Below, one piece after another: positions 165-61,596 of a stretch of DNA of 64,000 nt (positions within the stretch are counted from its first letter, which is position 1; each line of letters opens with the position of its first letter). The notes beneath the pieces were generated by a model, which saw only the letters and a list, made by a program, of their open reading frames with translations, was not told where the DNA came from and searched no databases. Location of the stretch: NCBI RefSeq assembly GCF_021245725.1, contig NZ_JAJGSX010000023.1:1-64000 (forward strand), given 5' to 3'. This stretch comes from Pseudonocardia sp. TRM90224. Lineage in GTDB: Bacteria > Actinomycetota > Actinomycetes > Mycobacteriales > Pseudonocardiaceae. Position numbers and translations under genes: made by a program.

Positions 165-238
165 GCCTGGAAAGCTACTTTCCCGGCCTGTGGCGCCAGG
201 AAAGTGGCTTTCCAGGCAACGTGTGCGTCCCGCACGCA
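165..238. repeat. Family A palindromic intergenic repeat, locus 1
   Basis: Two palindromic units lie here: a degenerate one around 166-188 (GGAAAGCTACTTTCC) and a good one at 195-217 (GGAAAGTGGCTTTCC flanked by GCCA/AGGC arms). A small hairpin, GTGTGCGTCCCGCACGC, follows at 221-237. The same three-part arrangement recurs at 28.8 kb and 61.3 kb. Confidence 0.85.
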
Positions 239-316
239 TCCTGCCCACGGGCACACGGCCGAGCGGAAGGCGGGCCGAGCCGGTTCGCTCCCCTCGTTTT
301 CGGGCACTCGCTGCAC

Positions 317-583
317 ATGACCGACCAGCACGGAATCGCACCGGACGTCCTGGGCGACGACGACCTGCGCCGCGAGCTCGCCCACCTCCACGAGACGAGG
401 CACGACACGGTGCTGGACGGGAGCGAGTCGGCGTTGGAGAGCCACACCCGCCGGATGCTGGCCCTCGAGCAGGAGTTCATCCGGCGGTTCCCGCAGGACG
501 CTGCCCCCGATGCCGCACGCACCAGGGCCGGCAGCCGCGAGCGCGCCGGCCAGTCCTCGACCGGCCACGACCGCAGCGGCTGA
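317..583 (+). CDS. DUF6158-type small protein
   Basis: An 88-residue acidic, helical protein. Its middle part (DLRRELAHLHETRHDTVL, then ALESHTRRMLALEQEFIRRFP) matches what I remember of the actinobacterial DUF6158 family, which has no established function. I start it at the ATG at 317. The frame is open back to 221, but that upstream part lies across the repeat hairpin and a proline/arginine-rich stretch that looks non-coding. It stands alone ahead of the PAS-ANTAR gene. The family name is from memory. Confidence 0.7.
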   Translation: MTDQHGIAPDVLGDDDLRRELAHLHETRHDTVLDGSESALESHTRRMLALEQEFIRRFPQDAAPDAARTRAGSRERAGQSSTGHDRSG

Positions 584-765
584 ATCCCGACTGAATCCCC
601 GGCTGAATCCGAGTCCGACCCGCCGGGCCCCGGCCACCGGGATCCGCACCGCGGATGCGATCATCATTGCCGGTTGAGCAGCCAGCCGGAGGCGCACGGG
701 TCAGGTCCAGGCCCGGGCGTCTCCGACCTGCGAATGGACCGTCGTGTGCAGGAGGACGACGGGGA

Positions 766-1524
766 ATGGCGCCTGCCGAGATGGCACGCTGGCCGCACGG
801 CCATTGGCTCTGGAACGTCTCGACCCGCTTGTGGGTCTGGAACGACCCGATGTACCGGATCTACGGGTATCGGCCGCACGACGTCGTCCCCGACGCCGAG
901 CTGCTCCTCGCGCACACCGCGGAGCACGATCGCGCCGGTGTGCGGCGCGACCTCGCGCAGCTGCGCGACAACGGGACCGAGTTCGCCGCGGTCACCCACA
1001 TCCGCCGGGCGGACGGCTCGGTGGCGCCGGTCGCGACGATCGGGCACGCGTCCCCGACGCTCGCCGAGGTCCGGGTCGGATGGGTGGTCCCACTCGACAC
1101 CGGCCGGGCGGCAGTCGCCGACAACGACGCCGCCACCGGCAACGGCGACGCGACAGCCCGGCAGATCCAGAACCTCGAGGCCGCGCTCGAGAGCCGGGAC
1201 GTCATCGGGCAGGCCAAGGGGGCGCTGCGGGCCAGGATGGGCATCGGCGACGCCGCCGCGTTCGACACGCTGCGCTGGATCTCGCAGAACACGAACCTGC
1301 GGCTGGCCACCGTCGCGGAACGGCTCGTCGTGCACCTCACCGATCGAACCACCGACCGAACCGATGCCACCGACGACCGGGTCCGGTTCACCCAGCTGTT
1401 CCTCGACTTCGTCGAGGACCTCCGCCAGCTGCGACCCACATCGGCCGGCGACGGCGACCCCGTCGAGCTCGGCCACCCGGGCGCGGCGGCGGACAAGGCG
1501 GACAAGGCGGACGACCGGCCGTGA
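766..1524 (+). CDS. PAS and ANTAR domain antiterminator protein
   Basis: Cytoplasmic regulator of 252 residues. Residues about 10-110 form a PAS-like sensory domain (HWLWNVSTRLWVWNDPMY, later IRRADGSV). Residues about 133-190 carry an ANTAR domain, with the coiled-coil entry QIQNLEAALESRDVIGQAKG and the three-helix ending LRLATVAERLVVHL. ANTAR proteins bind paired RNA hairpins and prevent transcription termination, so this is probably a signal-dependent RNA-binding antiterminator; the signal is unknown. The ATG at 766 is chosen because AGGAGG lies at 750-755, ten bases upstream. An open frame back to 655 has no such site. The tail has a repeated ADK motif. Confidence 0.85.
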   Translation: MAPAEMARWPHGHWLWNVSTRLWVWNDPMYRIYGYRPHDVVPDAELLLAHTAEHDRAGVRRDLAQLRDNGTEFAAVTHIRRADGSVAPVATIGHASPTLAEVRVGWVVPLDTGRAAVADNDAATGNGDATARQIQNLEAALESRDVIGQAKGALRARMGIGDAAAFDTLRWISQNTNLRLATVAERLVVHLTDRTTDRTDATDDRVRFTQLFLDFVEDLRQLRPTSAGDGDPVELGHPGAAADKADKADDRP

Positions 1525-1527
1525 CGT

Positions 1528-1561
1528 CCGTACCCGCCGGTCAGCCGGCCGGCGGGTACGG
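1528..1561. terminator. Bidirectional hairpin between convergent genes
   Basis: Perfect 13-base arms CCGTACCCGCCGG (1528-1540) and CCGGCGGGTACGG (1549-1561) are separated by 8 bases. The hairpin starts just after the stop of the ANTAR gene and contains the stop of the opposite-strand reductase gene (1541-1543), so it can serve both. There is no clear T-run. Confidence 0.6.
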
Positions 1562-2161
1562 CGCCCCGCGCAGCAGGCCGGCGAGGTGCACCGCGTTGGT
1601 CGTCATCGTCGCGATCGTCGACGCGACGGCCTCCGGGGTCTCGTCGAGATCCTTGAAGTCCGTCTTCGTCATCGCCTCGCCGTTCCAGTAGACGCCGCCG
1701 TTCGCCGGCACGGTGAAGCCGACGTCGTTGAGCCCTTGGAACAGGTCGGCGGTGATCTTGTGGGCGCCGTCCTCGTTGCCGACCACCAGCGCCAGCGCGA
1801 CCTTGCCGAACGTCAGCATCCGGCCCTCGTCGTCGGTCTCGGACAGCTCGGCGTCGAGCCGTTCCAGCACCCTCTGAGCGACGCTGCTCATGTTGCCCAT
1901 CCAGGTCGGCGTGGCCAGCACCAGGATGTCGGCGGCGAGCATCCGTTCCCGCACGGCCGGCCACTCGTCGCCATCGCCCATGTCCTTCTCGACGCCGGGC
2001 CGGATGTCGAGGTCGACCACCCGCTCGACGGCGACCGGCACGCCGGCCTTCTCCAGCGCCTCCCGGACCAGGTCGATCATCGCCTCGGTGCTCGACCCGC
2101 CCGGGGACGGTGTCAGCGTGCAGTTGAGGGCCAGCGCCGAGAGCTGCGTCGATGTGCTCAT
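1541..2161 (-). CDS. Flavodoxin-fold NADPH-dependent FMN reductase-like protein
   Basis: 206-residue cytoplasmic protein with a flavodoxin-like fold. The N-terminal strand and phosphate loop read ALNCTLTPSPGGSSTEAM (about residues 10-27), followed by the flavin-contacting segment LATPTWMGNMSSVAQRVLER (about 80-100) and a third loop around VVGNEDGAHKI. This is the pattern of the NAD(P)H-dependent FMN reductase / flavodoxin-like family, which transfers electrons from NAD(P)H through FMN. The natural substrate cannot be read from sequence. The start is the ATG at 2161. The palindrome at 2214-2274 lies upstream, between this gene and mmcQ. Confidence 0.8.
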   Translation of the reverse strand: MSTSTQLSALALNCTLTPSPGGSSTEAMIDLVREALEKAGVPVAVERVVDLDIRPGVEKDMGDGDEWPAVRERMLAADILVLATPTWMGNMSSVAQRVLERLDAELSETDDEGRMLTFGKVALALVVGNEDGAHKITADLFQGLNDVGFTVPANGGVYWNGEAMTKTDFKDLDETPEAVASTIATMTTNAVHLAGLLRGAPYPPAG

Positions 2162-2213
2162 GCGCACGGATACCCGTCGCCGATCGATCCACACCGCGAG
2201 CCCTGGGGGAACC

Positions 2214-2274
2214 GTCGACAACGACGTCCTGGCTGTTCTGAAACGTTTCATGTGACCAGAACGTCGTTGTCGAC
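2214..2274. repeat. Family B palindrome, copy 1
   Basis: The outer arms GTCGACAACGACGT (2214-2227) and ACGTCGTTGTCGAC (2261-2274) are perfect. Inside lie TGGCTGTT on one side and a 12-base perfect palindrome, TGAAACGTTTCA (2239-2250). The arms match those of the palindrome at 40033-40093. It lies just downstream of the mmcQ-like stop and upstream of the reductase start, so it may act as a terminator. Confidence 0.8.
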
Positions 2275-2280
2275 GCGGAC

Positions 2281-2628
2281 CTAGCGCTGGCGGTGGGCGT
2301 CGGTGAGGATCTCGCGGACCTCGTCCCAGTCGGGGCCGTCCGGACGCACGTCGAGGCGCATCCCGATCCAGTCGCTGCCGCCGAACCGCGGTTCGAAGAA
2401 CACCTCGGGATCGGCGGCGGGCAGCTCCAGGCGCGCACCAGGTGGGGCTGCCGCCCAGAACGCGACGCTGCGCTCCTCCAGCCGGTGCTCGGCGGGATCG
2501 ACGAACTTGGCGAACGAGCGCCGCCGCACGTACCAGGTCGGCGCGCCGTGCGTCACGCCCTCGGTGACCCCCGGGAGCGCCATGCAGCGCTCCCGCACCC
2601 CGGCCAGCAGCTCCGCGACCGTCGGCAT
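2281..2628 (-). CDS. MmcQ/YjbR family protein
   Basis: 115-residue protein with the features of the MmcQ/YjbR family: an N-terminal helix with LPGVTEGVTHGAPTWYVRRR, a central strand KFVDPAEHRLEERSVAFW, and a C-terminal DWIGMRLD...DWDEVREILTDA. Members are small CyaY-like-fold proteins often annotated as DNA-binding, but without a settled role. GGAAGG lies nine bases upstream of the ATG at 2628, which supports this start over the TTG at 2637. It is divergent from the alpha/beta hydrolase that starts 43 bases away. Confidence 0.85.
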   Translation of the reverse strand: MPTVAELLAGVRERCMALPGVTEGVTHGAPTWYVRRRSFAKFVDPAEHRLEERSVAFWAAAPPGARLELPAADPEVFFEPRFGGSDWIGMRLDVRPDGPDWDEVREILTDAHRQR

Positions 2629-2671
2629 CCGTCCCAACCTTCCTGTCGGTGTCCCCCGCTACGTTCCTCCG

Positions 2672-3361
2672 ATGGCCGAGTTCGTGCTGGTTCCAGGGGT
2701 TTGGTTGGGTTCGTGGGCGTGGGGGGCGGTCGAGCCGCACCTGCGCGCCGCAGGCCATGGCGTGCACCCGTTGACGCTCTCGGGCGTCGCGGAGAAGCGC
2801 GACATCCCGGCCGGTCAGCAGACCCACGTGCAGGACATCCTCGACGCCGTCGAGAAGCCGGATCTGCACGAGGTCGTGCTGGTCGGGCACAGCTACTCGG
2901 GCATCCCGGTCGGGCAGGCCGCCGAGCGCATCGGCACCCGGCTGGCGCAGGTCGTGTTCGTCGATTCCAACGTCCCCACCGACGGGGAGTCGTTCGTCTC
3001 CGCCCCGTACGGCGGCCTCGTCGTCGAGGCGCTCACCGCGAACGGCGGCTACTGGCCCGTCCTCGACGCCGCCGAGTTCGCCGGCCACGGCCTCACCGAC
3101 GCCCAGATCGCCCGGATGATCAGCCACGGCACCCCGCATCCGGGCACGTCGCTGACCGAGCCCGCCGTCGTGTCGCGTCCGCTCGGCGAGCTGCCGGCCA
3201 CCTACATCAAGTGCCTGCTCGACGGGCCGGAGCCGAGCCCCGAGGTCGCTGCGCTGCTGCGCAGCGAGAGCTGGCGACTGGTCGAGATGAACACCGGCCA
3301 CTGGCCCATGTTCTCCCAGCCGCGGGAGCTGGCGGAGATCCTCCTCGAGGCCGCCGGGTAG
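2672..3361 (+). CDS. Alpha/beta hydrolase
   Basis: 229-residue alpha/beta hydrolase without a signal peptide. The oxyanion-side motif is near the N-terminus (VLVPGVWLGSWAWG, residues 4-17). The nucleophile elbow is GHSYSG (Ser about residue 75), and the catalytic His is probably in NTGHWPMFSQP close to the C-terminus. The acid is likely in the strand after VVFVDSNVP or later. It resembles short esterases of the EstC/salicylate-esterase-like group; the substrate is unknown. It is convergent with the SnoaL-like gene, with four bases between their stops. Confidence 0.85.
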   Translation: MAEFVLVPGVWLGSWAWGAVEPHLRAAGHGVHPLTLSGVAEKRDIPAGQQTHVQDILDAVEKPDLHEVVLVGHSYSGIPVGQAAERIGTRLAQVVFVDSNVPTDGESFVSAPYGGLVVEALTANGGYWPVLDAAEFAGHGLTDAQIARMISHGTPHPGTSLTEPAVVSRPLGELPATYIKCLLDGPEPSPEVAALLRSESWRLVEMNTGHWPMFSQPRELAEILLEAAG

Positions 3362-3365
3362 GGCG

Positions 3366-3728
3366 TCAGGGCAGATCCATCGGTGTCAGCACCGCGATCT
3401 GCCAGCCGTCGCGCTCGACGAGCTGGTAGCAGAACCGCTCCCGCGCCGCGCCGCCGTAGGACCACGTGACGTCGACCCAGAGGCTGCCCGGCGCCTCCGC
3501 GATCACCAGGATCCGCGGCTCGGCCGACTCGACACCCTCGTACTGCGACCACGACGCGGCGAAGAACTGCTCGGTCTGCGCCACGTCGCCGACCGCGACC
3601 GACGTCCCGGGGAAGAGGATCAGCGACGGCACCGCGTACATGCCGCCGATCGCCTTCTCGTCCCTGGCCAGCAAGGCGTCCGCGTAGGTCTTGAAGAACC
3701 TGGCCGCCGTCTCCCGTGCGTTGCTCAT
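3366..3728 (-). CDS. SnoaL/NTF2-like domain protein
   Basis: 120-residue single-domain protein. The opening ARETAARFFKTYADALLARD, the central VDVTWSYGGAARERFCYQLV and the final WQIAVLTPMDLP fit the cone-shaped NTF2/SnoaL/DUF4440 fold. Such proteins can be small isomerases, hydrolases or ligand-binding domains, and there is no residue pattern here that settles the role. The start is the ATG at 3728. It lies 57 bases from the start of the divergent HTH gene. Confidence 0.75.
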   Translation of the reverse strand: MSNARETAARFFKTYADALLARDEKAIGGMYAVPSLILFPGTSVAVGDVAQTEQFFAASWSQYEGVESAEPRILVIAEAPGSLWVDVTWSYGGAARERFCYQLVERDGWQIAVLTPMDLP

Positions 3729-3784
3729 GCCGATGACGCTACGAGCGAAACCGGACACGCCGGTGTCGCCTTTACGATCGGGTT

Positions 3785-4177
3785 GTGGACCGAAGCATCC
3801 AGCTTGCCGCAGCGTCGCGCGACGGCCATCTGGCGCTGCGGCGGGTCGAGCGCCAGCAGGCACTGATCGAACGCCTGCACGCAGCGCACGGCGAGCCGAT
3901 CCCGCTCGTGCTGCTGGCCGACGGGCTCGGGGTGTCGGAGCGGACGGTGGCACGCGACGTCGAGCGGTTGCGCTCGAGCGGGGTCCCGGTGCGGACACGG
4001 CAGGGGCGCGGCGGCGGGGTGCTGCTCAGCGCAACCGCGACCGACGTGACGATCGTGCTCGACCTGCCGGAGGCGGCAGCGCTGATCTCGAGCCTCGCCG
4101 TGCTCGGCCCGAGCGTCAGCCCCAGTGCGGCGTCGGCGATGCGGAAGCTCACCCGGGCATTGGGATCCGGCCAGTAG
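3785..4177 (+). CDS. Short HTH (HTH_11/DeoR-type) regulator
   Basis: 130-residue protein with a winged helix-turn-helix at about residues 20-75 (LIERLHAAHGEPIPLVLLAD, then GVSERTVARDVERLRSSGVPV and a glycine wing RQGRGGGV). This is the N-terminal half of WYL/YafY-type regulators, but the WYL and WCX domains are missing, so it is either a naturally short form or a truncated relative. The start is a GTG. A TACGAT hexamer at 3773-3778 sits where a -10 box would be for transcription starting at the GTG itself, and there is no ribosome site, which suggests a leaderless mRNA (inference). Confidence 0.75.
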   Translation: MDRSIQLAAASRDGHLALRRVERQQALIERLHAAHGEPIPLVLLADGLGVSERTVARDVERLRSSGVPVRTRQGRGGGVLLSATATDVTIVLDLPEAAALISSLAVLGPSVSPSAASAMRKLTRALGSGQ

Positions 4178-4188
4178 GAACATGACGA

Positions 4189-4235
4189 TGCCGCGGCCGC
4201 CCGGAGGGGACGGGCGACCGCGGCACCGCGTTTTT
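4189..4235 (+). terminator. Rho-independent terminator
   Basis: Fifteen-base arms, TGCCGCGGCCGCCCG (4189-4203) and CGGGCGACCGCGGCA (4211-4225), differ at one position and have a 7-base loop. They are followed by CCGCG and five T residues (4231-4235). It stands 12 bases after the stop of the HTH gene, in the right orientation for it. Confidence 0.75.
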
Positions 4236-4265
4236 CGGGCGCCGGCCGGCGTCAGGTCACCGGCG

Positions 4266-5126
4266 TCAGGCCCCCAGCGCCGCGCGGATCGCGTCGGCGG
4301 TGGCCCGCATGCCGTTGGCGTTGGGGTGCCCGATCGCGCCGTCCGAGCCCGCGACGACGCCGTTCACCCAGGGGTCGGCCGAGCAGGCGTGGTGGTCGGT
4401 CGAGGGCTCGTGCATGTCGACGAACGTCGCGTTCCCGTCCTGCTCGGCCGCCTTCTCCATGGCGCCGCTGAGGCCGTCCTCCACCTGCGCCATCCACGGG
4501 ACGTCACCCGGCGCGACCGGCAGCGCCGCGCAGGTTCCCTCCGTGCCACCGATCCGCGGGTAGCCGACCAGCACCACCTTGGCGACGGGCGCTTTGGCGT
4601 GGATCGCGGCGATGTTGCGCAGCACCTTCGCCTGCGTCCTCTCGAGCATGCCGGGGATCTGCCAGCCCAGCGCCGCCTGGCAGGGGTTGGACAGGAAGTG
4701 CGGTCGTGCCGCGACCATGCGGCACCTCATCATCAGCCGCGCGTAGAGCATCTCGTCGTTCCCGCCGATGCTCAGCGTCACGAGCTTCGTCTCCGGCCCG
4801 ATGCCCGCGACCTGGACGGGGTTCGCCCCCTGCGGGCCCTGGTCGATGTTCGCGGTTGTGGCCCCGCCGCAGCTCATGTCGGTCAGCTCCGCGCCGAGGT
4901 CGTCGGCGAGCAGGTGCGGGTAGTTCGCCCCCGACCGACCGCACAGGCCGTTGACGACGGGCGGCAAGGCCGGGCCGGACGTGAACGAGTCGCCGAGCGA
5001 GACGTACGAGTCGTATCCCGCCGCCCCCTCGGGCACCGGGGCGGCCGCCGCGCTCGTCGTCGACGCAAGTGCGACGGCAGCTCCGATCGCGAGCACCGCC
5101 GTTGTGCGTCGCATACCTGACTTCAC
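4266..5126 (-). CDS. Secreted SGNH/GDSL-family lipase/esterase
   Basis: 286-residue exported hydrolase. A signal peptide (RRTTAVLAIGAAVALASTTS, then AAAAPVP) is followed by block I YVSLGDSFTSGP with the nucleophile Ser. Further on come the block II Gly region (CGGATTANID), block III SIGGNDEM with Asn, and block V HPNANGMRATADAI with the His preceded by a histidine-rich acid region. The arrangement matches the Streptomyces SGNH lipase group. The GTG at 5126 is chosen because TGGAGG ends six bases before it. An ATG twelve bases further in and one at 5147 are alternatives. It lies 26 bases downstream of a paralogue and is probably in the same transcript. Confidence 0.88.
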   Translation of the reverse strand: MKSGMRRTTAVLAIGAAVALASTTSAAAAPVPEGAAGYDSYVSLGDSFTSGPALPPVVNGLCGRSGANYPHLLADDLGAELTDMSCGGATTANIDQGPQGANPVQVAGIGPETKLVTLSIGGNDEMLYARLMMRCRMVAARPHFLSNPCQAALGWQIPGMLERTQAKVLRNIAAIHAKAPVAKVVLVGYPRIGGTEGTCAALPVAPGDVPWMAQVEDGLSGAMEKAAEQDGNATFVDMHEPSTDHHACSADPWVNGVVAGSDGAIGHPNANGMRATADAIRAALGA

Positions 5127-5152
5127 GTGTGTCCTCCAGTTGGACATTCGAT

Positions 5153-5938
5153 CTATCCTGCGGCCCGCAGCCGCTCGACGAGCAGTGCGGAGATACCGGA
5201 CATCCCGGCATGGGTGGGGTGCCACTTCGCGGCGTCGGACGCGGAGGTCTCCGGTTCGAACCAGCGCTCTCCGGGCGGTACGCACGCCGTGTGCTCCGCG
5301 CTCGGCCCGTGGGTGTCGACGAAGGTGATGCCCCGCGCGTCGGCCTGCGCCGCCATCGCCGCGTTGAAGAGGTCGACCGGTCCTTGGACAACGGCGCCGA
5401 CCCACGGCGCCACGCTCGGCGGGCACGCGCCTGCCGGCACGTACATGCCGTACCCGACGACCAGGATCTGCGCCTTTGGCGCCCGCCGGCGGATGTCGTC
5501 GAGCAGCGGACCCCACTTCGTCGCCGCGGCGTTGTCCACCGCCGCCTGCAGGCCACCGGGCTGCCACTGGCACAGGCCGGAGCACTGGACGTCGTTGGCC
5601 CCGATGGTGAGCGTCACGAGGCTCGTCTCGGCGGTCAGCTCACCCAGCTGGCGGGCAACGACATCGCCGGACTTCGCCCCCGAGCACGTGACGTCGGCGA
5701 GCGGGAGCTCGAGCGCCTGCGCCGTGAGCGCCGGATAGTTCACCTGCGACCGGCTGCACCAGTACGGCTGGCCGAGCACCTGCGGCTGCAGCACCGGCCC
5801 GGCCGCGTAGGAGTCTCCGAGAGCGACGTACCGATCGCCGGGCGCTGCGTCCGCGGCTCCCGTGAGGCAGCCAACACCGAGAGTGACGGCGATGGCTATC
5901 GCTACCGCCAACAGGGGGATCCTCGCGCGACCGGCCAT
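5153..5938 (-). CDS. Secreted SGNH/GDSL-family lipase/esterase (paralogue)
   Basis: 261 residues. A signal peptide has a long hydrophobic core (IPLLAVAIAIAVTLGVG) and a Cys soon after, so a lipoprotein cannot be excluded. Block I is YVALGDSYAAGP, block III is TIGANDVQ, and block V is HPTHAGMSGISALL. Several Cys pairs (CSRSQ, CSGAK, CSGLCQ, CPPS) suggest disulfides, as in the Streptomyces lipase type. The start is uncertain: an ATG at 5938 or a GTG at 5962, neither with a strong ribosome site. With the downstream paralogue it forms a tandem duplicate pair facing the PucR-type regulator. Confidence 0.85.
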   Translation of the reverse strand: MAGRARIPLLAVAIAIAVTLGVGCLTGAADAAPGDRYVALGDSYAAGPVLQPQVLGQPYWCSRSQVNYPALTAQALELPLADVTCSGAKSGDVVARQLGELTAETSLVTLTIGANDVQCSGLCQWQPGGLQAAVDNAAATKWGPLLDDIRRRAPKAQILVVGYGMYVPAGACPPSVAPWVGAVVQGPVDLFNAAMAAQADARGITFVDTHGPSAEHTACVPPGERWFEPETSASDAAKWHPTHAGMSGISALLVERLRAAG

Positions 5939-6174
5939 GGGTGAAAGGAATATCAGTCGCACTGCGTGACGACCACCGTATGGCGCCTGGGAAGAACCTC
6001 AAAAATCGCCCGCTCTACTATGGATACGTCACAACGGGGTGACTCTCGACGCATTCCCGGCTCCCGGAATTTCAACCGCTCGGCCATCGGGTACAGCTCA
6101 TCCGGCACAGCCCATCGAATGCAGCACGGATCGGCCGGCCCGTGGCACCCGAGTGGACAGAAGGAGGCGCGGAC

Positions 6175-7407: not shown

Positions 7408-7460
7408 ACACACGTATCACCATGTGAAATGAACGACTGGGATTGCCTTCTTGGCCCGGC

Positions 7461-7924: not shown

Positions 7925-8020
7925 GTTCAGCAGGCTTTACCGCTGTTCAGCGCCTGTCACGTTCCCGTCGAGCGGTCCGTCAGGTCGGTGACGGCATCGT
8001 TCAGAGCGATCGGAGAGATC

Positions 8021-8785: not shown

Positions 8786-8817
8786 GCCCCTGGACGGGTC
8801 GGCAGGTTCCGCACGCA

Positions 8818-8875
8818 AGGGCAGGAAAGCCACTTTCCTGCCCTGTGAGGGCCGGAAAGTGGCTTTCCTGCCCTC
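8818..8875. repeat. Family A palindromic repeat, locus 2
   Basis: Two near-perfect palindromic units in opposite orientation, GGAAAGCCACTTTCC and GGAAAGTGGCTTTCC, each flanked by AGGGC(A/C) and CTGCCCT, are joined by TGTG. It lies between two convergent genes, just after their stops. Confidence 0.9.
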
Positions 8876-8907
8876 CTCCGGTACCCCGAAGGGTTCGGCC
8901 GGTCGCC

Positions 8908-9777: not shown

Positions 9778-9815
9778 GCCGCCACGGTAGGAGCTGCGGT
9801 GAGTAGGTTGGCGTG

Positions 9816-10166: not shown

Positions 10167-10202
10167 CCGGCGACCGGCCGGGCCGCAGGGAGCGAGGGGG
10201 TT

Positions 10203-10304
10203 GCCAGGAAAGTGGCTTTCCTGGCCTGTCGCGCCAGGAAAGTGGCTTTCCTGGCCTGTCGCGCCAGGAAAGTGGCTTTCCTGGCAACGCGTGCGGGACG
10301 CACG
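10203..10304. repeat. Family A repeat, locus 3: three tandem units
   Basis: Three copies of a GCCAGGAAAGTGGCTTTCCT-type unit follow one another with a 30-base period, joined by CTGTCGC. The hairpin GCGTGCGGGACGCACGC follows at 10289-10304. Unlike the other loci, all three units have the same orientation. It lies just beyond the gvpK stop, between convergent genes. Confidence 0.9.
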
Positions 10305-16280: not shown

Positions 16281-16354
16281 CGTGCGTTGCGCACGCGAAG
16301 GCAGGAAAGCCACTTTCCGGCCCTCACAGGGCAGGAAAGTGGCTTTCCTGCCCT
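16281..16354. repeat. Family A palindromic repeat, locus 4
   Basis: The hairpin GTGCGTTGCGCACGC (16282-16296) is followed by two opposite-facing units, GGAAAGCCACTTTCC and GGAAAGTGGCTTTCC, joined across CCCTCACAGGG. It lies between two convergent genes. Confidence 0.9.
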
Positions 16355-19778: not shown

Positions 19779-19848
19779 AACTTCCCCACCGTTTTGCCAA
19801 CCTGCACGCCGATCCGGGTGTGCAAGTTGGCAAAACGGTGGGGAACTT
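19779..19848. terminator. Long perfect hairpin between convergent genes
   Basis: Perfect 23-base arms at 19779-19801 and 19826-19848 (AACTTCCCCACCGTTTTG... with its exact complement), with a 24-base spacer that itself pairs in part (CTGCAC with GTGTGCA). It lies between the stops of the fasciclin and sigma-factor genes. It is probably a bidirectional terminator, unusually long. Confidence 0.75.
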
Positions 19849-24277: not shown

Positions 24278-24334
24278 AGGGCAGGAAAGCCACTTTCAGG
24301 CCCTGTGAAGGCAGGAAAGTGGCTTTCCTGCCCT
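24278..24334. repeat. Family A palindromic repeat, locus 5
   Basis: A unit with one mismatch (GGAAAGCCACTTTCAGG) and a perfect GGAAAGTGGCTTTCC unit, joined by CCCTGTGAA. It lies between convergent genes. Confidence 0.88.
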
Positions 24335-28792: not shown

Positions 28793-28869
28793 AACGCGTG
28801 CGTCCCGCACGTGTTGCCTGGAAAGCCACGTTCCCGGCCCCACGCGCCTGGAAAGTGGCTTTCCAGGCG
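28793..28869. repeat. Family A palindromic repeat, locus 6
   Basis: The small hairpin ACGCGTGCGTCCCGCACGTG leads. It is followed by a unit GCCTGGAAAGCCACGTTCCC and a perfect unit CCTGGAAAGTGGCTTTCCAG. It lies between convergent genes. Confidence 0.88.
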
Positions 28870-33908: not shown

Positions 33909-34056
33909 GGGTTGCCAGGAGAGTCAGCCATGGCCCTCCGGGCCACCACGAGGGATGAGAATCCGTGTTGGGGCTGGGATGTGTGCGTTCCGCACACAAG
34001 GGCAGGAAAGCCACGTTCAAGCCCTGTGAGGGCCGGAAAGTGGCTTTCCTGCCCTC
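33909..34056. repeat. Family A repeat, locus 7, with the longer composite leader
   Basis: A leader containing GTTGCCAGGA, CCATGGCCCTCCGGGCC, CGAGGGATGAGAATCCGTG and GGGGCTGGGATG runs into the hairpin GTGTGCGTTCCGCACAC (33981-33997) and two family A units. The leader recurs at 57.7 kb and in part at 61.16 kb. The gap 33722-34089 holds nothing else that I can support, apart from the upstream side of the molybdoenzyme gene. Confidence 0.85.
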
Positions 34057-40026: not shown

Positions 40027-40032
40027 GCCGGC

Positions 40033-40093
40033 GTCGACAACGACGTTCTGGCTGTTTGTGAGCGCTCACAACAGCCATTTCGTCGTTGTCGAC
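40033..40093. repeat. Family B palindrome, copy 2 (61 bases)
   Basis: GTCGACAACGACG and CGTCGTTGTCGAC form the outer arms. TGGCTGTT/AACAGCCA and a central perfect GTGAGCGCTCAC complete an almost perfect 61-base palindrome. It lies four bases before the stop of the methyltransferase and six after that of the hydrolase, so it is well placed as a bidirectional terminator. Confidence 0.85.
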
Positions 40094-40097
40094 GGTG

Positions 40098-42720: not shown

Positions 42721-42777
42721 AGGGCAGGAAAGCCACTTTCCTGCCCTGTGAGGGCCTGAAAGTGGCTTTCCTGCCCT
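42721..42777. repeat. Family A palindromic repeat, locus 8
   Basis: Units GGAAAGCCACTTTCC and TGAAAGTGGCTTTCC in opposite orientation are joined by CTGCCCTGTGAGGGCC. It lies between convergent genes. There is no small leader hairpin at this locus. Confidence 0.9.
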
Positions 42778-48574: not shown

Positions 48575-48580
48575 CACGAC

Positions 48581-48630
48581 AACGACGTCATGGCTGCTGG
48601 GAGGGGGCTCCCGGCAGCCATGACGTCGTT
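48581..48630. terminator. Family B palindrome, copy 3, as terminator
   Basis: Twenty-three-base arms (AACGACGTCATGGCTG... at 48581-48603 and its complement at 48608-48630) carry one mismatch and a 4-base loop. The AACGACGT and TGGCTG elements are those of the other family B copies. It lies between the convergent lipoprotein and epoxide hydrolase genes. Confidence 0.8.
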
Positions 48631-48644
48631 CTCGGCGGAATGCG

Positions 48645-51631: not shown

Positions 51632-51688
51632 AGGGCAGGAAAGCCACTTTCCTGCCCGCACAGGGCCTGAAAGTGGCTTTCCTGCCCT
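51632..51688. repeat. Family A palindromic repeat, locus 9
   Basis: Units GGAAAGCCACTTTCC and TGAAAGTGGCTTTCC are joined by CTGCCCGCACAGGGCC. It lies between two divergent genes, upstream of both, unlike most loci, which lie beyond gene ends. Confidence 0.88.
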
Positions 51689-51768
51689 CACCGCGACCGG
51701 ATCCAGCCGGCGATCCTCGCGCACGGGTCGCGCCGGTAGGGTCCGCGCGGGACCGGCGAGGGGGGACG

Positions 51769-52356: not shown

Positions 52357-52381
52357 GAGGCGGCACGGATTCGCGGCGGGG

Positions 52382-52437
52382 GTGCCAGGAAAGTGGCTTT
52401 CCTGGCACCACAGGACAGGAAAGCCACTTTCCTGGCA
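52382..52437. repeat. Family A palindromic repeat, locus 10
   Basis: The order of units is reversed relative to other loci: GCCAGGAAAGTGGCTTTCCT first, GGAAAGCCACTTTCC second, joined by GGCACCACAGGACA. It lies between two convergent genes. Confidence 0.88.
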
Positions 52438-52454
52438 ACGTCCGCGCCCGGCCG

Positions 52455-55898: not shown

Positions 55899-55983
55899 GC
55901 GGAGGACGACGCTACCCGGGCGGCCGGGCGCGGCGCTGCCGGTTTTCCCGCACCCTGGGTCCGATGTCGACGATGCGCGCAGG

Positions 55984-57681
55984 TCAGCGCTGCGGGATGC
56001 AGAAGTCCAGGTCGCAGCCTTGGTCGGCACCGGTGACGTGCTGGTGGAACAGCCGCCGGTAGCCCGTGGCGGGACCGGCCGCGGGCGGCGGCAGCGCGGC
56101 GCGGCGGCGCTCCAGCTCGGCGTCGTCGACGAGCAGGTCGAGCCGGGAATCGCGCACCGAGAGCCGGATCCGGTCGCCGTTGCGCACGAGCGCGAGCGGG
56201 CCGCCGTCGGCGGCCTCCGGCGTGACGTGCAGGACGATCGTGCCGTACGCCGTGCCGCTCATCCGCGCGTCGGAGATCCGGACCATGTCCCGCACCCCCG
56301 CCCGCGCCAGCTTCGCCGGGATCGGCAGGTAGCCGGCCTCCGGCATGCCCGCGCCGCGCGGTCCGGCGTGCTGCAGCACGAGCACGTCCGACGGCTCGAC
56401 GTCGAGGTCGGGGTCGTCGACGCGGGCCGCGAGGTCGGCCAGCGACGTGAACACGACAGCCCGGCCGGTCGTCTCGAACAGCGCCGGGTCGGCCGCGGAC
56501 CGCTTGATCAGCGCGCCGCCCGGGGCCAGCGACCCGCGCAGCCACACCAGCCCGCCGGTGGCCCTGGCCGGCTCGGCCCGCGTGCGGACGACGGACCGGT
56601 CGACCCAGCCGGGACCCGCACCCAGCGTTTCGCCGAGCGTCTCGCCCGTGACGGTCGGCGCCGAGAGATCCAGCAGGTCGCGCAGCTCGTGCAGCACCGC
56701 GGGCAGCCCGCCGGACGCGTGCAGGTCCTCCATGTAGTGCTCGCCGGTCGGCTTCAGCTCGACGAGCACCGGCGTGGTCGCGCTGAGCGCGTTCAGCTCG
56801 TCGGGGTCGATCGTGATCCCGAGCCGGCCGGCCGCCGCGGTGAGGTGGATCAGCGCGTTCGTCGAGCCGCCGATCGCGAGCAGCACCCGCAACGCGTTGC
56901 GCACCGACGCCGGCGTCACGACCTGCGCCGGGGTCCGACCGGCCGCGGCGATCTCCACCGCGGCCGCGCCGGTCGCCTCGGCGATCCGCAGGCGGTCGGC
57001 GTGCACGGCGGGTGCCGTCGCGCTGCCCGGCAGCGCCATCCCCAGCACCTCGACGAGGCACGCCATGGTGCTGGCCGTGCCCATCACCGCGCAGGTGCCG
57101 GCCGTCGTGGCGAGGTTGCGCTCCACCTCGGCGATCTGCGCAGCGTCGACGTCGCCGCCGCGGTAGCGCGCCCAGAACCGGCGGCAGTCGGTGCAGGCGC
57201 CGAGCCGTTCGCCGTGGTGGCGGCCCGTCGACATCGGCCCGGCAACGAGCTGGATCGCCGGGCGGCTCGCCGAGAACGCGCCCATCAGCTGCGCCGGGAC
57301 GGTCTTGTCGCAGCCGCCGACGAGCACCACCGCGTCCATCGGCTGGGCCCGCACCATCTCCTCGACGTCCAGTGCCATGAGGTTGCGGAACATCATCGCC
57401 GTCGGGTCGAGGAAGCCCTCGCCGAGCGAGATGGTCGGGAACCGCATCGGGAGCCCGCCCGCCGCCGTGACCCCGCGGACAACCGACTCCACCAGCTCCG
57501 GCTGAGCGCGGTGGCACGGGTTGAAGTCGCTCGCCGACGTCGCGATCCCGATCACCGGCCGCTCCAACGACTCCGGCGAGCGCCCCGTGGCGTGCAGGAA
57601 CGTGCGGCGCAGGTAGCGGGAGAACTCCCGGTCGCCGTAGTCGGTGAGGCCCCGGTAGACCCCCGCCTCTTCCTCGTCCAT
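55984..57681 (-). CDS. IlvD/Edd-family dehydratase (sugar-acid type)
   Basis: 565 residues. Fe-S/Mg ligands and signatures are VVLVGGCDKTVPAQLMGAFS (Cys about 130), GACTDCRRFWARY (about 200) and TAGTCAVMGTASTMACLVEV (about 240). The phosphate/Ser motif DARMSGTAYGTIVLHVTPEA lies near the end. The GTC-MGTASTM variant is closer to arabonate/xylonate dehydratases than to the branched-chain enzyme, so it probably dehydrates an aldonic acid. The ATG at 57681 is used. The neighbouring alpha-glucosidase and ROK gene fit a sugar-use region. Confidence 0.85.
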   Translation of the reverse strand: MDEEEAGVYRGLTDYGDREFSRYLRRTFLHATGRSPESLERPVIGIATSASDFNPCHRAQPELVESVVRGVTAAGGLPMRFPTISLGEGFLDPTAMMFRNLMALDVEEMVRAQPMDAVVLVGGCDKTVPAQLMGAFSASRPAIQLVAGPMSTGRHHGERLGACTDCRRFWARYRGGDVDAAQIAEVERNLATTAGTCAVMGTASTMACLVEVLGMALPGSATAPAVHADRLRIAEATGAAAVEIAAAGRTPAQVVTPASVRNALRVLLAIGGSTNALIHLTAAAGRLGITIDPDELNALSATTPVLVELKPTGEHYMEDLHASGGLPAVLHELRDLLDLSAPTVTGETLGETLGAGPGWVDRSVVRTRAEPARATGGLVWLRGSLAPGGALIKRSAADPALFETTGRAVVFTSLADLAARVDDPDLDVEPSDVLVLQHAGPRGAGMPEAGYLPIPAKLARAGVRDMVRISDARMSGTAYGTIVLHVTPEAADGGPLALVRNGDRIRLSVRDSRLDLLVDDAELERRRAALPPPAAGPATGYRRLFHQHVTGADQGCDLDFCIPQR

Positions 57682-57724
57682 CCGCGCGAACCTACGCCGC
57701 GAGGCCGCCCGGCAGTCCGAGGTG

Positions 57725-57932
57725 GGCGTCAGGAAAGTCCGCCATGACCCTCCGGGCCGCCGCGAGGGATGTGAGTCCGTGCTGGGCGCGGCCGGGCCCG
57801 CCGGGCGGTCGGGAGTGCCTTGCGCACGCATCCGCGGGGCCGTGCTGGGGCTGGGATGTGTGCGTTGCGCACGCGAGGGCAGGAAAGCCACTTTCAGGCC
57901 CTGTGAGGGCAGGAAAGTGGCTTTCCTGCCCT
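57725..57932. repeat. Family A repeat, locus 11, with the longer composite leader
   Basis: GTCAGGAAAGTCCGCCATGA, CCCTCCGGGCCGCCGCGAGG and GATGTGAGTCCGTGCTGGG repeat the leader seen at 33.9 kb. After an unrelated 50 bases comes CTGGGGCTGGGATGTGTGCG, the hairpin GTGTGCGTTGCGCACGC, and two family A units. The gap 57682-57986 contains nothing else. Confidence 0.85.
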
Positions 57933-57986
57933 CACCTGCACCCCCGGGGCAGGTGGCCGACCGCTTCGTGGGCCACCAGCCGCGCC

Positions 57987-59615
57987 CTACCCCTCGGCCG
58001 CCACCAGCCACACCGTCGTCTCGCCCGGCAGCTTGCCGTCCTCGACGGGCCCGGAGCTGATCACGACCCGGCCGGCCGGCAGCTCGACGGCCTCGGTGCC
58101 GAAGTTGGTGATCGACGTCCAGCCGTTGGGGCGGGCGAACTGCAGGACGGTGTCGCCGTCGTCCCCGGCGCTGTCGGTGATCTCCACGGACTCGGCGGTC
58201 TGCAGGCGCCGGCGCGCCCGGATCGCCTCCCGGTAGAACGACAGCGTCGACTCTTCGTCGTCGGACTGCGTCGCCACCGCGAGCCCGGCGAACCAGCCCG
58301 GCTGCGGCAGGTGGGCCGGGCCGGCACCGAACCCGAACGACGGGCCGGTCGCCTCCCATGGCAGCGGGACGCGGCAGCCGTCGCGCCCCTTGACGTCGCC
58401 GCCCGAGATGGCCCAGACCGGGTCCTGGCGCGCCCCGACCGGTATGTCGGCCACCTCCGGCAGGCCGAGCTCCTCGCCCTGGTAGAGGTAGGTGGAACCG
58501 GGCAGCGCGAGCAGCAGCAGCGTCGCCGCGCGGGCCCGACGCAGCCCTCGCTCGAGGTCGGGAGCCGGGTCCTGCCCGCCCGAGCGCAGCCAGGCGGTCT
58601 CGTCGGTGCCGGGCGGCAGCCCGTAGCGGGAGCGGTGGCGGATGACGTCGTGGTTGGACAGCACCCAGGTCGATGAGCTGCCCGACGCCAGGTCGAGCCG
58701 GCGGTGTTCCTCGATGATCGCGCGGAACGCCGCGGCGTCCCACTGCGCCTGCAGCAGGTCGAAGTTGAACGCCTGGCCGAGGCTGTCCGGGGAGGTGTAG
58801 CGCTTGATGCGGTCCGCCGGCACCCACGCCTCGGCGACCGCCATGCGTGGCGGGTCGTACGAGTCGAACACCGCGCGCCACTCGGCGTAGACCTCCGAGA
58901 GCTCGTCGCGGTCGTGCAGCCGGTGCGTCCCCGGCACGACGTCCTCGGCGTCCAGCTCCGCCTGCGTCGGCAGCGGCAGCGACATGTCCTTGACCAGCGC
59001 CGTTGCGACGTCCACTCGGAAGCCGTCGACACCCCGGTCCGACCAGAACCGCAGGGTGCGCAGGAAGTCGGCGCGCACCTCGTCGTTGGCCCAGTTGAAG
59101 TCGGGCTGCTCGGGCGCGAAGAGGTGCAGGTACCAGTCGCCGTCGCCGACCGGCTCCCACGTCGGCCCGCCGAAGTACCCCACCCAGTCGCTCGGCGGCT
59201 CCTCGCCGTTCGGACCGCCGCCGCGGCGGAACACGTACCGCTCGCGCTCCGGCGAGCCGGGCCCTGCCGCGAGCGCCGCTCGGAACCACTCGTGCCGGTT
59301 CGACGAGTGGTTGGGCACGATGTCGACGATCAGCTTGATGCCGGCAGCGTGCAGCGCGGCCTGCATCTCGTCGAAGTCGGCGAGCGTGCCGAGCTTGGGG
59401 TCGACGTCGCGGTAGTCGTCGACGTCGTACCCGCCGTCGGCCAGTGCCGACGGGTAGAACGGGCTCAACCAGACCGCGTCGACGCCCAGGTCACGCAGGT
59501 GCTCGACCCTGCTGGTGATCCCGCGGAGATCACCGATCCCGTCGCCGTTCGCGTCGGCGAAGCTGCGTGGATAGATCTGGTAGACGACCGCCTGCCGCCA
59601 CCACGAGTCCGACAT
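57987..59615 (-). CDS. GH13 alpha-glucosidase
   Basis: 542 residues, (beta/alpha)8 glycoside hydrolase. VVYQIYPRSFADANGDGIGD leads to region I DIVPNHSS, region II DGFRVDVATAL with the nucleophile Asp (about residue 205), region III AVAEAWVPADR with the acid Glu, and region IV VLSNHDVIRH with the third acid. DGCRVPLPWE is typical of oligo-1,6-/alpha-1,4-glucosidases. There is no signal peptide, so it acts on imported oligosaccharides. The ATG at 59615 follows GGGGG. It is divergent from the ROK regulator. Confidence 0.92.
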   Translation of the reverse strand: MSDSWWRQAVVYQIYPRSFADANGDGIGDLRGITSRVEHLRDLGVDAVWLSPFYPSALADGGYDVDDYRDVDPKLGTLADFDEMQAALHAAGIKLIVDIVPNHSSNRHEWFRAALAAGPGSPERERYVFRRGGGPNGEEPPSDWVGYFGGPTWEPVGDGDWYLHLFAPEQPDFNWANDEVRADFLRTLRFWSDRGVDGFRVDVATALVKDMSLPLPTQAELDAEDVVPGTHRLHDRDELSEVYAEWRAVFDSYDPPRMAVAEAWVPADRIKRYTSPDSLGQAFNFDLLQAQWDAAAFRAIIEEHRRLDLASGSSSTWVLSNHDVIRHRSRYGLPPGTDETAWLRSGGQDPAPDLERGLRRARAATLLLLALPGSTYLYQGEELGLPEVADIPVGARQDPVWAISGGDVKGRDGCRVPLPWEATGPSFGFGAGPAHLPQPGWFAGLAVATQSDDEESTLSFYREAIRARRRLQTAESVEITDSAGDDGDTVLQFARPNGWTSITNFGTEAVELPAGRVVISSGPVEDGKLPGETTVWLVAAEG

Positions 59616-59639
59616 GAACACCCCCGACTAGTTTTGTTG

Positions 59640-59658
59640 AGGCCCTAAATATAGGCCT
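59640..59658. promoter_or_regulatory. Inverted repeat in the glucosidase/ROK divergent promoter
   Basis: AGGCCCTAAATATAGGCCT has AGGCC and GGCCT arms around an A/T-rich centre that includes CCTA/TAGG. It lies 25 bases before the glucosidase start and 42 before the ROK start. It is a likely ROK repressor operator; ROK sites are often A/T-centred palindromes. Confidence 0.55.
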
Positions 59659-59699
59659 TGCGCTAAAGTAGGCCGGGGCTGGCGGAGAGGTCAAGGGAC

Positions 59700-60890
59700 A
59701 TGACAGGAGCGGTTTCGTCGTCGCGGACGGCACGCGACGCCAACGCGCGGGTCGTGCTCGACCACCTGTGGGACAGCCCCGAGCCGCTGACCGGCACGGA
59801 CCTCATGGTCGCGACCGGACTGTCGCGCGCGACCGTCCACGACGTCTGCGAGGAGCTCATCGATCTCGGCTGGGCGCGTGAGGCCGAGAACCAGCGTGTG
59901 CACGGCGAGTACCGGAAGGGACGCCCGGCGCGCCGCTACGGCTTCGACCCCCACGCCGGCACCGTGCTCGGGATCGACGCCGGCGAGCACCGCGTCCGGG
60001 TCCGGCTCACCGACCTGCGAGGCACGCTGCTCGCCGCCGAATCGCGGTCCACGGCCTGCACGCTGCCGACACCGGAGCTGCGGCTCGACATCATCCGGGA
60101 GGCCGTCCGCCACGTCGTCGACGAGGCCGGTGCGCCGCGGGTGCTGGCCGCCGTCGTCGGTGTGCCCGCGCCGGTCGACAGCGACGGGCGGGTCAGCTAC
60201 CACGGCCACTGGTACTGGGAGCTGGTCAACCCCGACGTGGCCGGGCACCTGAGCAGCGCGTTCGGCTGGCCGGCGATCGTCGACAACGACGCGAACCTCG
60301 CCGCGCTCGGCGAAGGGTGGCAGGGACACGGCCGAGGGCTGCGCAACCACATCACCCTGCTGGCCGGCGAACGGCTCGGCGCCGGCATCGTCCACGACGG
60401 GCAGCTGCTGCGCGGTGCGCGCGGCGGCGCCGGCGAGATGCACTACCTCACGCTCGTCGAGGGCGTCGGCGGGCCGGCCGGGATCGGCGAGCTGGCCCGG
60501 GAGTGGGCCCGCGAGGCGCTTGCCGCACCTGGGGCGGAGTCGTCGCTGCAGGCGGTCGACGCGGTCGAGTCCGAGGCCGTCTTCGCCGCAGCGGCGGCGG
60601 GCGACGAGCTCGCCGCTGCGGTGATCGATCGCATCGGGGTCCGGATGGCGAAGGTCGTGGCGACGCTCGCCAGCATCGTCGACACCGAACAGGTGGTACT
60701 CGCCGGGCGGGTCGCGGAGTCGGCACAACCCATCGCCGACCGGATCGCGCACGACCTCCCCCACTACCTCGCGGCGCCCTACCCCCAGGTGCGCACGTCC
60801 GAGCTGGGTGGCGACGTAGTCGCGATCGGGGCGGTGAAGCGCGCGCTCGACCACGTCAGAGCCGGCGCGCTCGGGATCGCACTGCGCTGA
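59700..60890 (+). CDS. ROK-family transcriptional regulator
   Basis: 396 residues. The N-terminal winged HTH (LDHLWDSPEPLTGTDLMVAT, GLSRATVHDVCEELIDLGWA) precedes a ROK domain with VLGIDAGEHRVRVRLTDLRG, PAIVDNDANLAALGEGWQGH and ERLGAGIVHDGQLLRGARGG (the ROK signature, with the usual zinc-Cys motif missing). It probably senses a sugar and represses the divergent alpha-glucosidase gene. The ATG at 59700 lies after AAGGG. Confidence 0.88.
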   Translation: MTGAVSSSRTARDANARVVLDHLWDSPEPLTGTDLMVATGLSRATVHDVCEELIDLGWAREAENQRVHGEYRKGRPARRYGFDPHAGTVLGIDAGEHRVRVRLTDLRGTLLAAESRSTACTLPTPELRLDIIREAVRHVVDEAGAPRVLAAVVGVPAPVDSDGRVSYHGHWYWELVNPDVAGHLSSAFGWPAIVDNDANLAALGEGWQGHGRGLRNHITLLAGERLGAGIVHDGQLLRGARGGAGEMHYLTLVEGVGGPAGIGELAREWAREALAAPGAESSLQAVDAVESEAVFAAAAAGDELAAAVIDRIGVRMAKVVATLASIVDTEQVVLAGRVAESAQPIADRIAHDLPHYLAAPYPQVRTSELGGDVVAIGAVKRALDHVRAGALGIALR

Positions 60891-60949
60891 GCTGCTGCCA
60901 GTGCGCCGGGGCCGCGCGTGCGCCGGCGCCGGACGGGGAACCCCGGCGC

Positions 60950-61147
60950 ATGGACGAACGCGAAGGCCAGGCGAGCGAGCCGGACGACGCCCGGCAGAAC
61001 GGCGACGATGAGGTGAAGGAAGGTTTCACCGCCGACCTCCTCCGCCAAGCGACGATCACGGGCGAGCCCGGCAACACCGCCGACACCGGCCTGGAGGAAC
61101 CACCCGCCGCCGGCGCGATGCCAGCGGCCTCCGACGACGACACGTGA
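60950..61147 (+). CDS. Small acidic hypothetical protein
   Basis: 65 residues: DEREGQASEPDDARQNGDDE, VKEGFTADLLRQATITGEPG, then a Pro/Ala/Asp-rich end. It is probably disordered, with one short helix. The family is not recognised. It lies 60 bases after the ROK gene on the same strand. No strong ribosome site is present, so support is moderate. Confidence 0.45.
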   Translation: MDEREGQASEPDDARQNGDDEVKEGFTADLLRQATITGEPGNTADTGLEEPPAAGAMPAASDDDT

Positions 61148-61214
61148 TGCGTGGCAGCTCCGGAGGGTTGCCAGGAGTCCGCCATGGCCCCCGGGCCGGC
61201 CGCGGGCGGTGAAT

Positions 61215-61257
61215 GAACGGCACTTTCGTCCATACCTATTGGACGAAAGTGCCGTTC
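61215..61257. repeat. Unrelated perfect hairpin in the 61 kb repeat cluster
   Basis: Perfect arms GAACGGCACTTTCGTCCA (61215-61232) and TGGACGAAAGTGCCGTTC (61240-61257) with a 7-base loop. A piece of the long composite leader (CCAGGAGTCCGCCATGGCCC) stands just before it at 61163-61182. Confidence 0.8.
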
Positions 61258-61283
61258 GTTCGCTTCCCGGCCCGGCGGGCGGG

Positions 61284-61360
61284 CCACACGCCGGGAAAGC
61301 CACTTTCCCGGCGTGTGGGGCCGGGAACGTGGCTTTCCCGGCAACGTGTGCGTCCCGCAC
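61284..61360. repeat. Family A palindromic repeat, locus 12
   Basis: CCACACGCCGGGAAAG pairs with CTTTCCCGGCGTGTGG in an extended first unit. A second unit, CCGGGAACGTGGCTTTCCCG, and the hairpin GTGTGCGTCCCGCAC follow. The tips are GCCGGG/CCCGGC rather than GGGCAGG, showing drift of the arms while the core is kept. Confidence 0.85.
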
Positions 61361-61408
61361 CGATCCCGTGTGCACCTGGGATGCACGGACAGCGGCCGTA
61401 GGGCGCAC

Positions 61409-61472
61409 GTGCACAGGTTGATGCCTTCGTGCACAAGTTCGAACCTGTGCACGGGGTGGCGAACCTGTGCAC
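61409..61472. repeat. GTGCACAGGTT inverted/direct repeats
   Basis: GTGCACAGGTT (61409) is complemented by AACCTGTGCAC at 61442 and again at 61462. A related GTGCACAAGTTC is at 61429. Several alternative hairpins are possible. It resembles no other site in the window. Confidence 0.7.
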
Positions 61473-61519
61473 GACCAACCCCGCGGCCCGACCCGGGCCG
61501 TGACGGCCGGTCGGGATGT

Positions 61520-61596
61520 GTGTGCGTTGCGCACGCGAGGGCAGGAAAGCCACTTTCCGGCCCTCACAGGGCAGGAAAGTGGCTTTCCTGCCCTCC
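61520..61596. repeat. Family A palindromic repeat, locus 13
   Basis: The hairpin GTGTGCGTTGCGCACGC is followed by GGAAAGCCACTTTCC and GGAAAGTGGCTTTCC, joined by GGCCCTCACAGGGCA, almost identical to locus 4. It ends within a few bases of the point where the PEP-mutase-family homology stops. Confidence 0.9.

Follow-up and report, generated by a model that had tools for sequence, protein, structure and literature searches.

Between the genes of the first 64,000 nucleotides of contig NZ_JAJGSX010000023.1 of Pseudonocardia sp. TRM90224 (the whole of this stretch is called the window) lie many copies of a short palindromic repeat, here named family A, and the question they raise is what kind of element this is and how it came to be where it is. 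Repetitive extragenic palindromic (REP) repeats are usually explained by REP-associated tyrosine transposases (RAYTs). A very dense family with the design of REP doublets forming hairpins (REPINs), in a genome in which no RAYT was found, means that another enzyme or replication itself may spread hairpins. We lean, by a modest degree of belief, toward reading family A as REPIN-like hairpins that move without a RAYT, fill a bidirectional niche at gene 3′ ends and may be of use there; we infer the mobility, and the terminator role is putative.

Copies and anatomy of family A

A reading made from the letters of the window without database searches (the sequence-only reading) had reported the core of family A at thirteen loci, by coordinates that mark the start of an arm a few bases ahead of the core, and all 13 were found again. 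With up to 3 mismatches and both strands included there were 47 core matches in the window against 0.41 expected, and 0 of 100 shuffles reached 47. In the whole genome (9.38 Mb in 113 contigs, an assembly 96.7% complete) the exact core occurred 821 times, 402 forward and 419 reverse, with no match to a reversed control, and in the sequence examined for genes 0 of 59 loci with at most 1 mismatch were in called genes, so the core is neither absent elsewhere nor equally common inside genes. Gene calls were made with a home-made codon-usage caller and are not a curated annotation. The window is denser than the genome, with 13 loci in 64 kb compared with 48 in 800 kb of contig C1. Across the genus the core was present in 16 of 62 genomes, the runner-up having 58 copies and 46 having none, and these counts show that the copy number of family A is a lineage-specific amplification. 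Full doublets in named actinomycete records were mostly from Pseudonocardia, and a cultured species with the repeat is P. xinjiangensis JCM 11839 (loci L003, L011, L034, L041 and L061); among 394 genomes of the class, a sample with no other congener and two other members of the taxonomic family, only the present genome had one. In this genome (G000) contigs C2 and C13 start within A doublets (first 50 bases). Hairpins may thus break the assembly, and copy number may be undercounted. An Rfam scan of the window gave 12 matches with E up to 1, none above the gathering score and those on palindromes to microRNA models, all of which we judged to be chance. In the literature searched, from whose coverage subscription papers are mostly missing, no paper contained the core string and no title or abstract opening described family A.

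The unit is an odd palindrome with arms of about 10 bp and a 3-base centre, and its arms fall into class 1 (GGGCAGG) and class 2 (GCC(A/T/G)GG). Units do come in opposite pairs, as had been described, the order being CCAC then GTGG in 50 of 55 two-unit loci, and with this order the entire doublet forms one inverted repeat. The exceptions were four of the 55 doublets with both units in the same orientation and locus 52388, which is reversed; locus 10207 has three units, all in one orientation. Spacing had been put at about 32 bases and is in fact exactly 30 bp in 57 of 57 spacings between successive units at most 70 bp apart (14/14 in the window and 43/43 in 800 kb of C1). A third hairpin, H0 (GTGCGNNNCGCAC), was found at 8 of 13 window loci, its centre 23 bp from that of one unit. 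The window has 9 H0 matches, 8 of them no more than 150 bp from a unit, and C1 has 31, of which 21 are as close; the centre-to-centre distance is exactly 23 bp for 26 of the 29 close matches, and the 11 far from any unit comprised 9 in genes and 2 intergenic. The A doublet is a long near-perfect inverted repeat with palindromic arms, which is a REPIN-like design, and the earlier comparison with REP repeats and bacterial interspersed mosaic elements (BIMEs) was apt as regards high-copy extragenic palindromes, inverted doublets and fixed spacing.

Placement relative to genes

No locus had been seen inside an intact gene, and this extends to 0 of 60 placed loci in the window and C1. The further claim that loci are mostly between convergent genes was correct for the window, where 9 of 12 were convergent, 2 tandem and 1 divergent (12 of the 13 loci, locus 169 not being placed), but not for the window and C1 together, where 25 of 60 were convergent, 29 tandem and 6 divergent, so that convergent placement is an enrichment and not a rule. 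Among gaps of at least 30 bp, family A was present in 22 of 94 convergent, 28 of 270 tandem and 5 of 132 divergent gaps (convergent versus divergent, p=1.2e-5). Elements in tandem gaps were a median of 56.5 bp from the upstream stop codon versus 131.5 bp from the downstream start (p=3e-4). Both the gap-type counts and the tandem distances bear out a 3′-end bias, and they show A elements to be enriched after stop codons and depleted in divergent gaps.

Hairpin structure

Two opposed palindromes 30 bp apart could form a single long hairpin closed by a short loop, or each could fold into a short hairpin of its own. RNAfold predicted one long hairpin for 101 of 102 doublets from this genome and 19 of 20 from relatives. 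In the 102, out of six outer-arm positions 4.79 were paired in the long-range arrangement and 4.53 and 4.43 locally, all exceeding 1000 of 1000 shuffles; long-range pairing was better in 20, worse in 26 and tied in 56, a similarity of fit that arises because the arms of both units are alike. In the relatives' doublets, whose outer arms often read GTTCAGG..CCTGAAC across the doublet, 4.6 of six positions paired across the doublet versus 3.2 and 3.1 within units, and long-range pairing was better in 13, worse in 5 and tied in 2. The units are locally palindromic as originally described, but that description was incomplete, since in relatives an outer arm finds its better partner at the far side of the doublet and not in its own unit. 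Inner-arm pairing was above 1000 of 1000 shuffles in both sets. Covariation of the arms had been taken to indicate selection on the hairpin; hairpin structure was a correct reading, but selection was overstated. Covariation alone is no proof of it, because template-switch correction can keep palindromes perfect and the copies are related, and because shuffles ignore relatedness the pairing statistics support structure without proving selection.

Turnover at matching sites

The syntenic genomes G012 and G017, mostly near 90% identity in aligned blocks, make turnover of 3′-end hairpins directly countable. Flank mapping reduced 36 strong palindromes to 28 rows with both flanks mapped and then to 20 distinct sites, with families assigned by eye. 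Ten sites held dispersed families, nine at a gene 3′ end and one in a divergent gap. The family was kept in three of these (in one the centre is flipped, and in another the arms have changed in a compensating way from GCC..GGC to GTC..GAC), replaced by another family in two (A versus GTGAGTGGATACG, and A versus the GACGAACG family), and absent or a remnant in the other species in five. At five apparently single-copy hairpins, with arm words occurring 3–5 times in the examined sequence of both genomes, there was a hairpin in both species at 5/5, one with a different sequence and a weaker score in the other species. Five more sites (three in genes, one operator-like in a divergent gap and one unassigned) were kept outside these counts. 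These comparisons show that elements have been gained or lost, or replaced, where the sites of two close species correspond. At the stop codon orthologous to that of locus 28815 there was an A element in G017, none in G012, and a weak imperfect palindrome in G043. One empty site in G012 looks as it would if two 8-bp repeats GGTTCAGG had recombined, or if an element had inserted at this octamer, and another in the same comparison had no duplication. There was also an orthologous pair of palindromes with an inverted 7-base centre, GGATAGGTACC at about 4375.6 kb of C1 in G017 and GGTACCTATCC at about 273.3 kb of C3 in G012, which suggests hairpin-mediated inversion. If the swaps are real replacements, a mobile element can set the sequence of a gene's 3′-end hairpin while its place is kept, and hairpin exchange, if true, would help explain the poor alignment of 3′-end hairpins between related high-GC bacteria.

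Other palindrome families and a larger repeat

The sequence-only reading had missed two things: the genome has several palindrome families besides family A, and family A also forms a module within a larger repeat. An inverted-repeat scan of gaps revealed three more dispersed families, B (CCCACCGTTTTGCCAAC...), C (GTCGACAACGACGT...) and D (CGAACGGCACTTTCGTC...). The 94 convergent gaps comprised 20 with A alone, 24 with B, 16 with C, 2 with A and D, and 32 with none of the four; none contained two of A, B and C, against 11.5 expected (0 of 20,000 permutations). The B core was at 52 loci in 800 kb of C1, and the edge of the C core was a median of 3 bp from a stop codon in this genome.

The larger repeat appears in the window as a 245-bp piece (57728-57972), with five other near-full copies at about 95–96% in the genome as well as partial copies. 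A 463-bp version, with 9-bp inverted termini TCAGGAAAG...CTTTCCTGA, has a series of palindrome modules and no gene. Across 8 copies of the 245-bp repeat, 2 of them partial, variable columns were 2 of 72 in the hairpin versus 26 of 176 elsewhere (p=0.003), or 2 of 72 versus 19 of 166 when misaligned ends were left out (p=0.02). Such low variability speaks for constraint on the hairpin or for palindrome correction by copying one arm from the other, and the data fit both alike.

Several other palindromes were seen in passing. A family B palindrome of 64 bp (CCCACCGTTTTGCC...) at window 19782-19845 lies between the stop codons of two convergent genes, at distances of 6 and 12 bp, and family C palindromes occur at window positions about 2213-2275, 40032-40094 and 48577-48634, the copy at 40032 having the centre GTGAGCGCTCAC. 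A single gap of 1.2 kb holds, next to each other at 61204-61525, a palindrome of family D, a doublet of family A and a palindrome module GTGCACAGG; this mosaic is akin to the 463-bp repeat. A GTGAGTGGATACGNGTGC... palindrome was present at 3′ ends in G043 (L116) and G012 (C3 near 103955).

The same geometry in other letters

Pairs of inverted palindromes with 3-base centres were searched for at pitches of 15–75 bp. The pitch was 30 in 28 of 29 pairs in this genome (not sorted by family), 4 of 5 in G017 and 7 of 8 in G012, with 0 in shuffles; elsewhere G043 had one pair, with a pitch of 52, and G024, G027 and G008 had none. A family unrelated to A, CGACGAACG-GCG-CGTTCGTCG, often with the centre ATAGGTA, accounted for 4/4 of the pitch-30 pairs in G017 and 5/7 in G012, where the remaining pairs were one A and one A-like variant. 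Examples of the 30-bp geometry are GGAAAG-CCA-CTTTCC, its variant GCAAAG-CCA-CCTTGC, and the unrelated CGAACG-GCG-CGTTCG. The exact GACGAACG doublet was in 4 of 386 genomes of the taxonomic family (12 in G012, 8 in G017, 3 in G043, 1 in G035) and 0 times in the present one. In genus g11 (G152, G165, G179, G188 and G198), GGAAAGGTCCTTTCC with GGAAAGGACCTTTCC, or GGAAAGGCTCTTTCC with its complement, was paired at 30 bp in several places, and this is possibly the same geometry in another genus. A broader proposal, which we put forward tentatively and think doubtful, is that Pseudonocardia contains a class of mobile 3′-end hairpins defined by geometry (two inverted palindromes with 3-base centres exactly 30 bp apart, letters free), in which some machinery would read shape and spread the elements without a RAYT, and in which the families would take one another's place at given gene ends as interchangeable, putative bidirectional terminators.

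Weighing the explanations

According to the reading of family A as mobile 3′-end hairpins, the repeat would be non-coding and apparently non-autonomous, often with H0 attached. Copies would spread as small mobile elements, through some enzyme or through replication template-switching on hairpins, and would survive where harm is small, in the space from a stop codon to the end of the neighbouring gene. There the hairpin may act in both directions as an mRNA 3′-end element, whether by pausing, by termination with the help of Rho or by blocking 3′ exonucleases, and one palindrome family could in this way, we propose, replace another.

Several observations weigh against this reading. Among the matches listed there was neither a mobilising enzyme for family A nor an autonomous or coding copy of the 245/463-bp repeat, and no consistent target duplication was found beside A doublets. 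Outside convergent gaps were 35 of the 60 placed A loci. A U-tract (at least 5 T in 8) followed the A doublet in 0 of 110 directions, on which count a classical intrinsic terminator was rejected; a putative terminator role would thus be Rho-assisted or hairpin-only, or else the role would be 3′-end protection. At gene ends orthologous to those of A loci 10202, 16299, 24279 and 28815, more distant congeners had a strong palindrome (inverted repeat score of at least 14 within 170 nt of the stop) at 5 of 23 and none at 18. The five were family A in G017 and other sequences in G012, G061, G043 and G035, and most of these orthologous genes do without a palindrome, though their neighbours may differ. 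Outer-arm pairing in relatives was not above shuffles (233 of 1000 reached it, and 719 of 1000 for two-sided changes), which is because the arms hardly vary. The exclusion among A, B and C is partly explained by gaps holding B and C being about element length (medians 80 and 66 bp), and there was none in tandem gaps (2 versus 3.5 expected).

The alternative that survives best, although we consider it unlikely, is that family A is a miniature inverted-repeat transposable element (MITE), or that it arose by modular decay from a DDE-type transposon whose ends were TCAGGAAAG...CTTTCCTGA. The 463-bp repeat with its inverted termini does hold palindrome modules, and dispersed matches exist for this repeat as well as for the 245 bp that make up its left part. 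However, the same lack of a coding copy among the matches listed, and of any clear target duplication, counts here too, and a stretch of 864 kb with 61 A loci has the termini just 11 times. Candidate empty sites are ambiguous; the nested site in the 463-bp repeat (window 61289 compared with C1 of this genome near 229 kb and with L261) reads as insertion or deletion alike.

Somewhat less probable again is that these are ordinary bidirectional terminators under selection, alike by gene conversion or shared descent and with no mobility. Placement at gene ends would fit, as would the enrichment of inverted repeats in convergent gaps of six congeners (200 kb each), where strong inverted repeats were in 2/17 to 5/11 convergent gaps, 2/56 to 8/73 tandem gaps and no divergent gaps except 2/36 in G017; controls gave 0 in shuffled gaps and 0/300 in 200-bp in-gene windows per genome, with 1/300 in G017. 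The contrast between 821 exact cores in one genome and none in 46 of the 62 genomes of the genus speaks against it, and so does the finding that close species differ in presence or absence of an element and in the family at a site.

Binding sites of a nucleoid or chromosome-organising protein would account for a rigid pitch in unrelated families, 30 bp being about three helical turns, but A cores are few or lacking in most congeners and, as the families differ in sequence, such a protein would have to read shape; we think this very improbable.

Classical REP/BIME repeats moved by a RAYT, a Y1 HUH transposase, would match in inverted doublets, intergenic position, 3′-end bias and lineage-specific copy number, as far as the available portions of PMC3116915 and PMC3733652 go, but this is the least credible of the explanations, because Y1 was not found in the genome (extending the earlier negative in the window, 0 PF01797 matches genome-wide by a search whose control was positive in 5 of 14 known genomes) and is mismatched with the core in the genus, where 5 of 62 genomes have Y1 and, among the 16 with the core, only G018 and G043 do, with one core each. 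Within 14 nt outside the arms, GTAG or its complement was found at 2 of 55 doublets and CGTC/GACG at 7 of 55, and a GTAG or CGTC tag at the doublet end was rejected on these counts. In the test for target duplication, words of 2–3 bases outside the arms were in weak excess (for example 5 versus 2.1, or, with many asymmetric offsets tried, 9 versus 3.4 at one), and a word length of 4 gave a single case of 4 versus 0.6, without consistency.

Features of the window

Table 1. Family A elements, H0 hairpins and parts of the larger repeat in the 64-kb window
Feature	Position	Strand
Family A doublet with arms of class 2; its units are at 169 and 199	164..218	.
H0 (GTGCGNNNCGCAC) of the doublet at 164	223..235	.
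Family A doublet with arms of class 1, convergent gap of 122 bp	8819..8873	.
Family A triplet, three same-orientation units, 30-bp pitch, convergent gap	10202..10286	.
H0 of the 10202 triplet	10291..10303	.
H0	16282..16294	.
Family A doublet, convergent gap of 115 bp	16299..16353	.
Family A doublet, convergent gap of 136 bp	24279..24333	.
H0	28798..28810	.
Family A doublet, class 2, convergent gap	28815..28869	.
Degenerate left-end module of the larger repeat, directly upstream of doublet 34000	about 33915-33972	
H0	33983..33995	.
Family A doublet, tandem gap	34000..34054	.
Family A doublet, convergent gap	42722..42776	.
Family A doublet, divergent gap (one of 6/60)	51633..51687	.
Family A doublet, reversed order (GTGG then CCAC), convergent gap	52383..52437	.
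245-bp piece of the larger repeat, encloses doublet 57877	57728..57972	+
H0	57860..57872	.
Family A doublet, tandem gap	57877..57931	.
Family A doublet, class 2, convergent gap of 1191 bp	61289..61343	.
H0	61348..61360	.
H0	61522..61534	.
Family A doublet, class 1, in the 1191-bp convergent gap shared with doublet 61289	61539..61593	.

Comparison with known systems

Family A resembles intrinsic bidirectional terminators in having a stable hairpin past stop codons and between convergent genes, and differs in lacking the U-tract and in belonging to dispersed families rather than being one-off hairpins. Pneumococcal BOX-like repeats are mosaics of hairpin modules in variable combination; the likeness, by description only, is in the hairpin-module mosaic, whereas the A doublet is often alone. 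Mitochondrial double-hairpin elements are short, apparently mobile hairpin pairs without genes, from which family A differs in its bacterial chromosome, its inverted-repeat geometry and its 30-bp pitch.

CGTC-tagged REPs have no dedicated transposase, and in S. wittichii convergent copies are mostly less than 20 bp from both 3′ ends, according to the available part of PMC3733652, a text which in that part has no mention of Actinobacteria, Pseudonocardia or Streptomyces. Family A is like them in that no dedicated transposase was found and in its presence at convergent 3′ ends, but 48 of its 55 doublets lack CGTC/GACG in the 14 nt beyond the arms. In Pseudomonas fluorescens SBW25, as given in the accessible text of PMC3116915, 93% of 430 REPIN doublets are inverted, with 71 bp between GI 16-mers, and family A shares with these inverted doublets of short palindromes, extragenic position, hundreds of copies, strict spacing and one long hairpin. 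Unlike them it has a pitch of 30 bp, no RAYT found, no GTAG tag, a high-GC actinomycete host, and halves that are both self-palindromic with a 3-base centre. The plan is known from REPINs; the differences are the absence of a tag and of any RAYT found, the 30-bp pitch, the self-palindromic halves, and the existence of an unrelated family with equal geometry.

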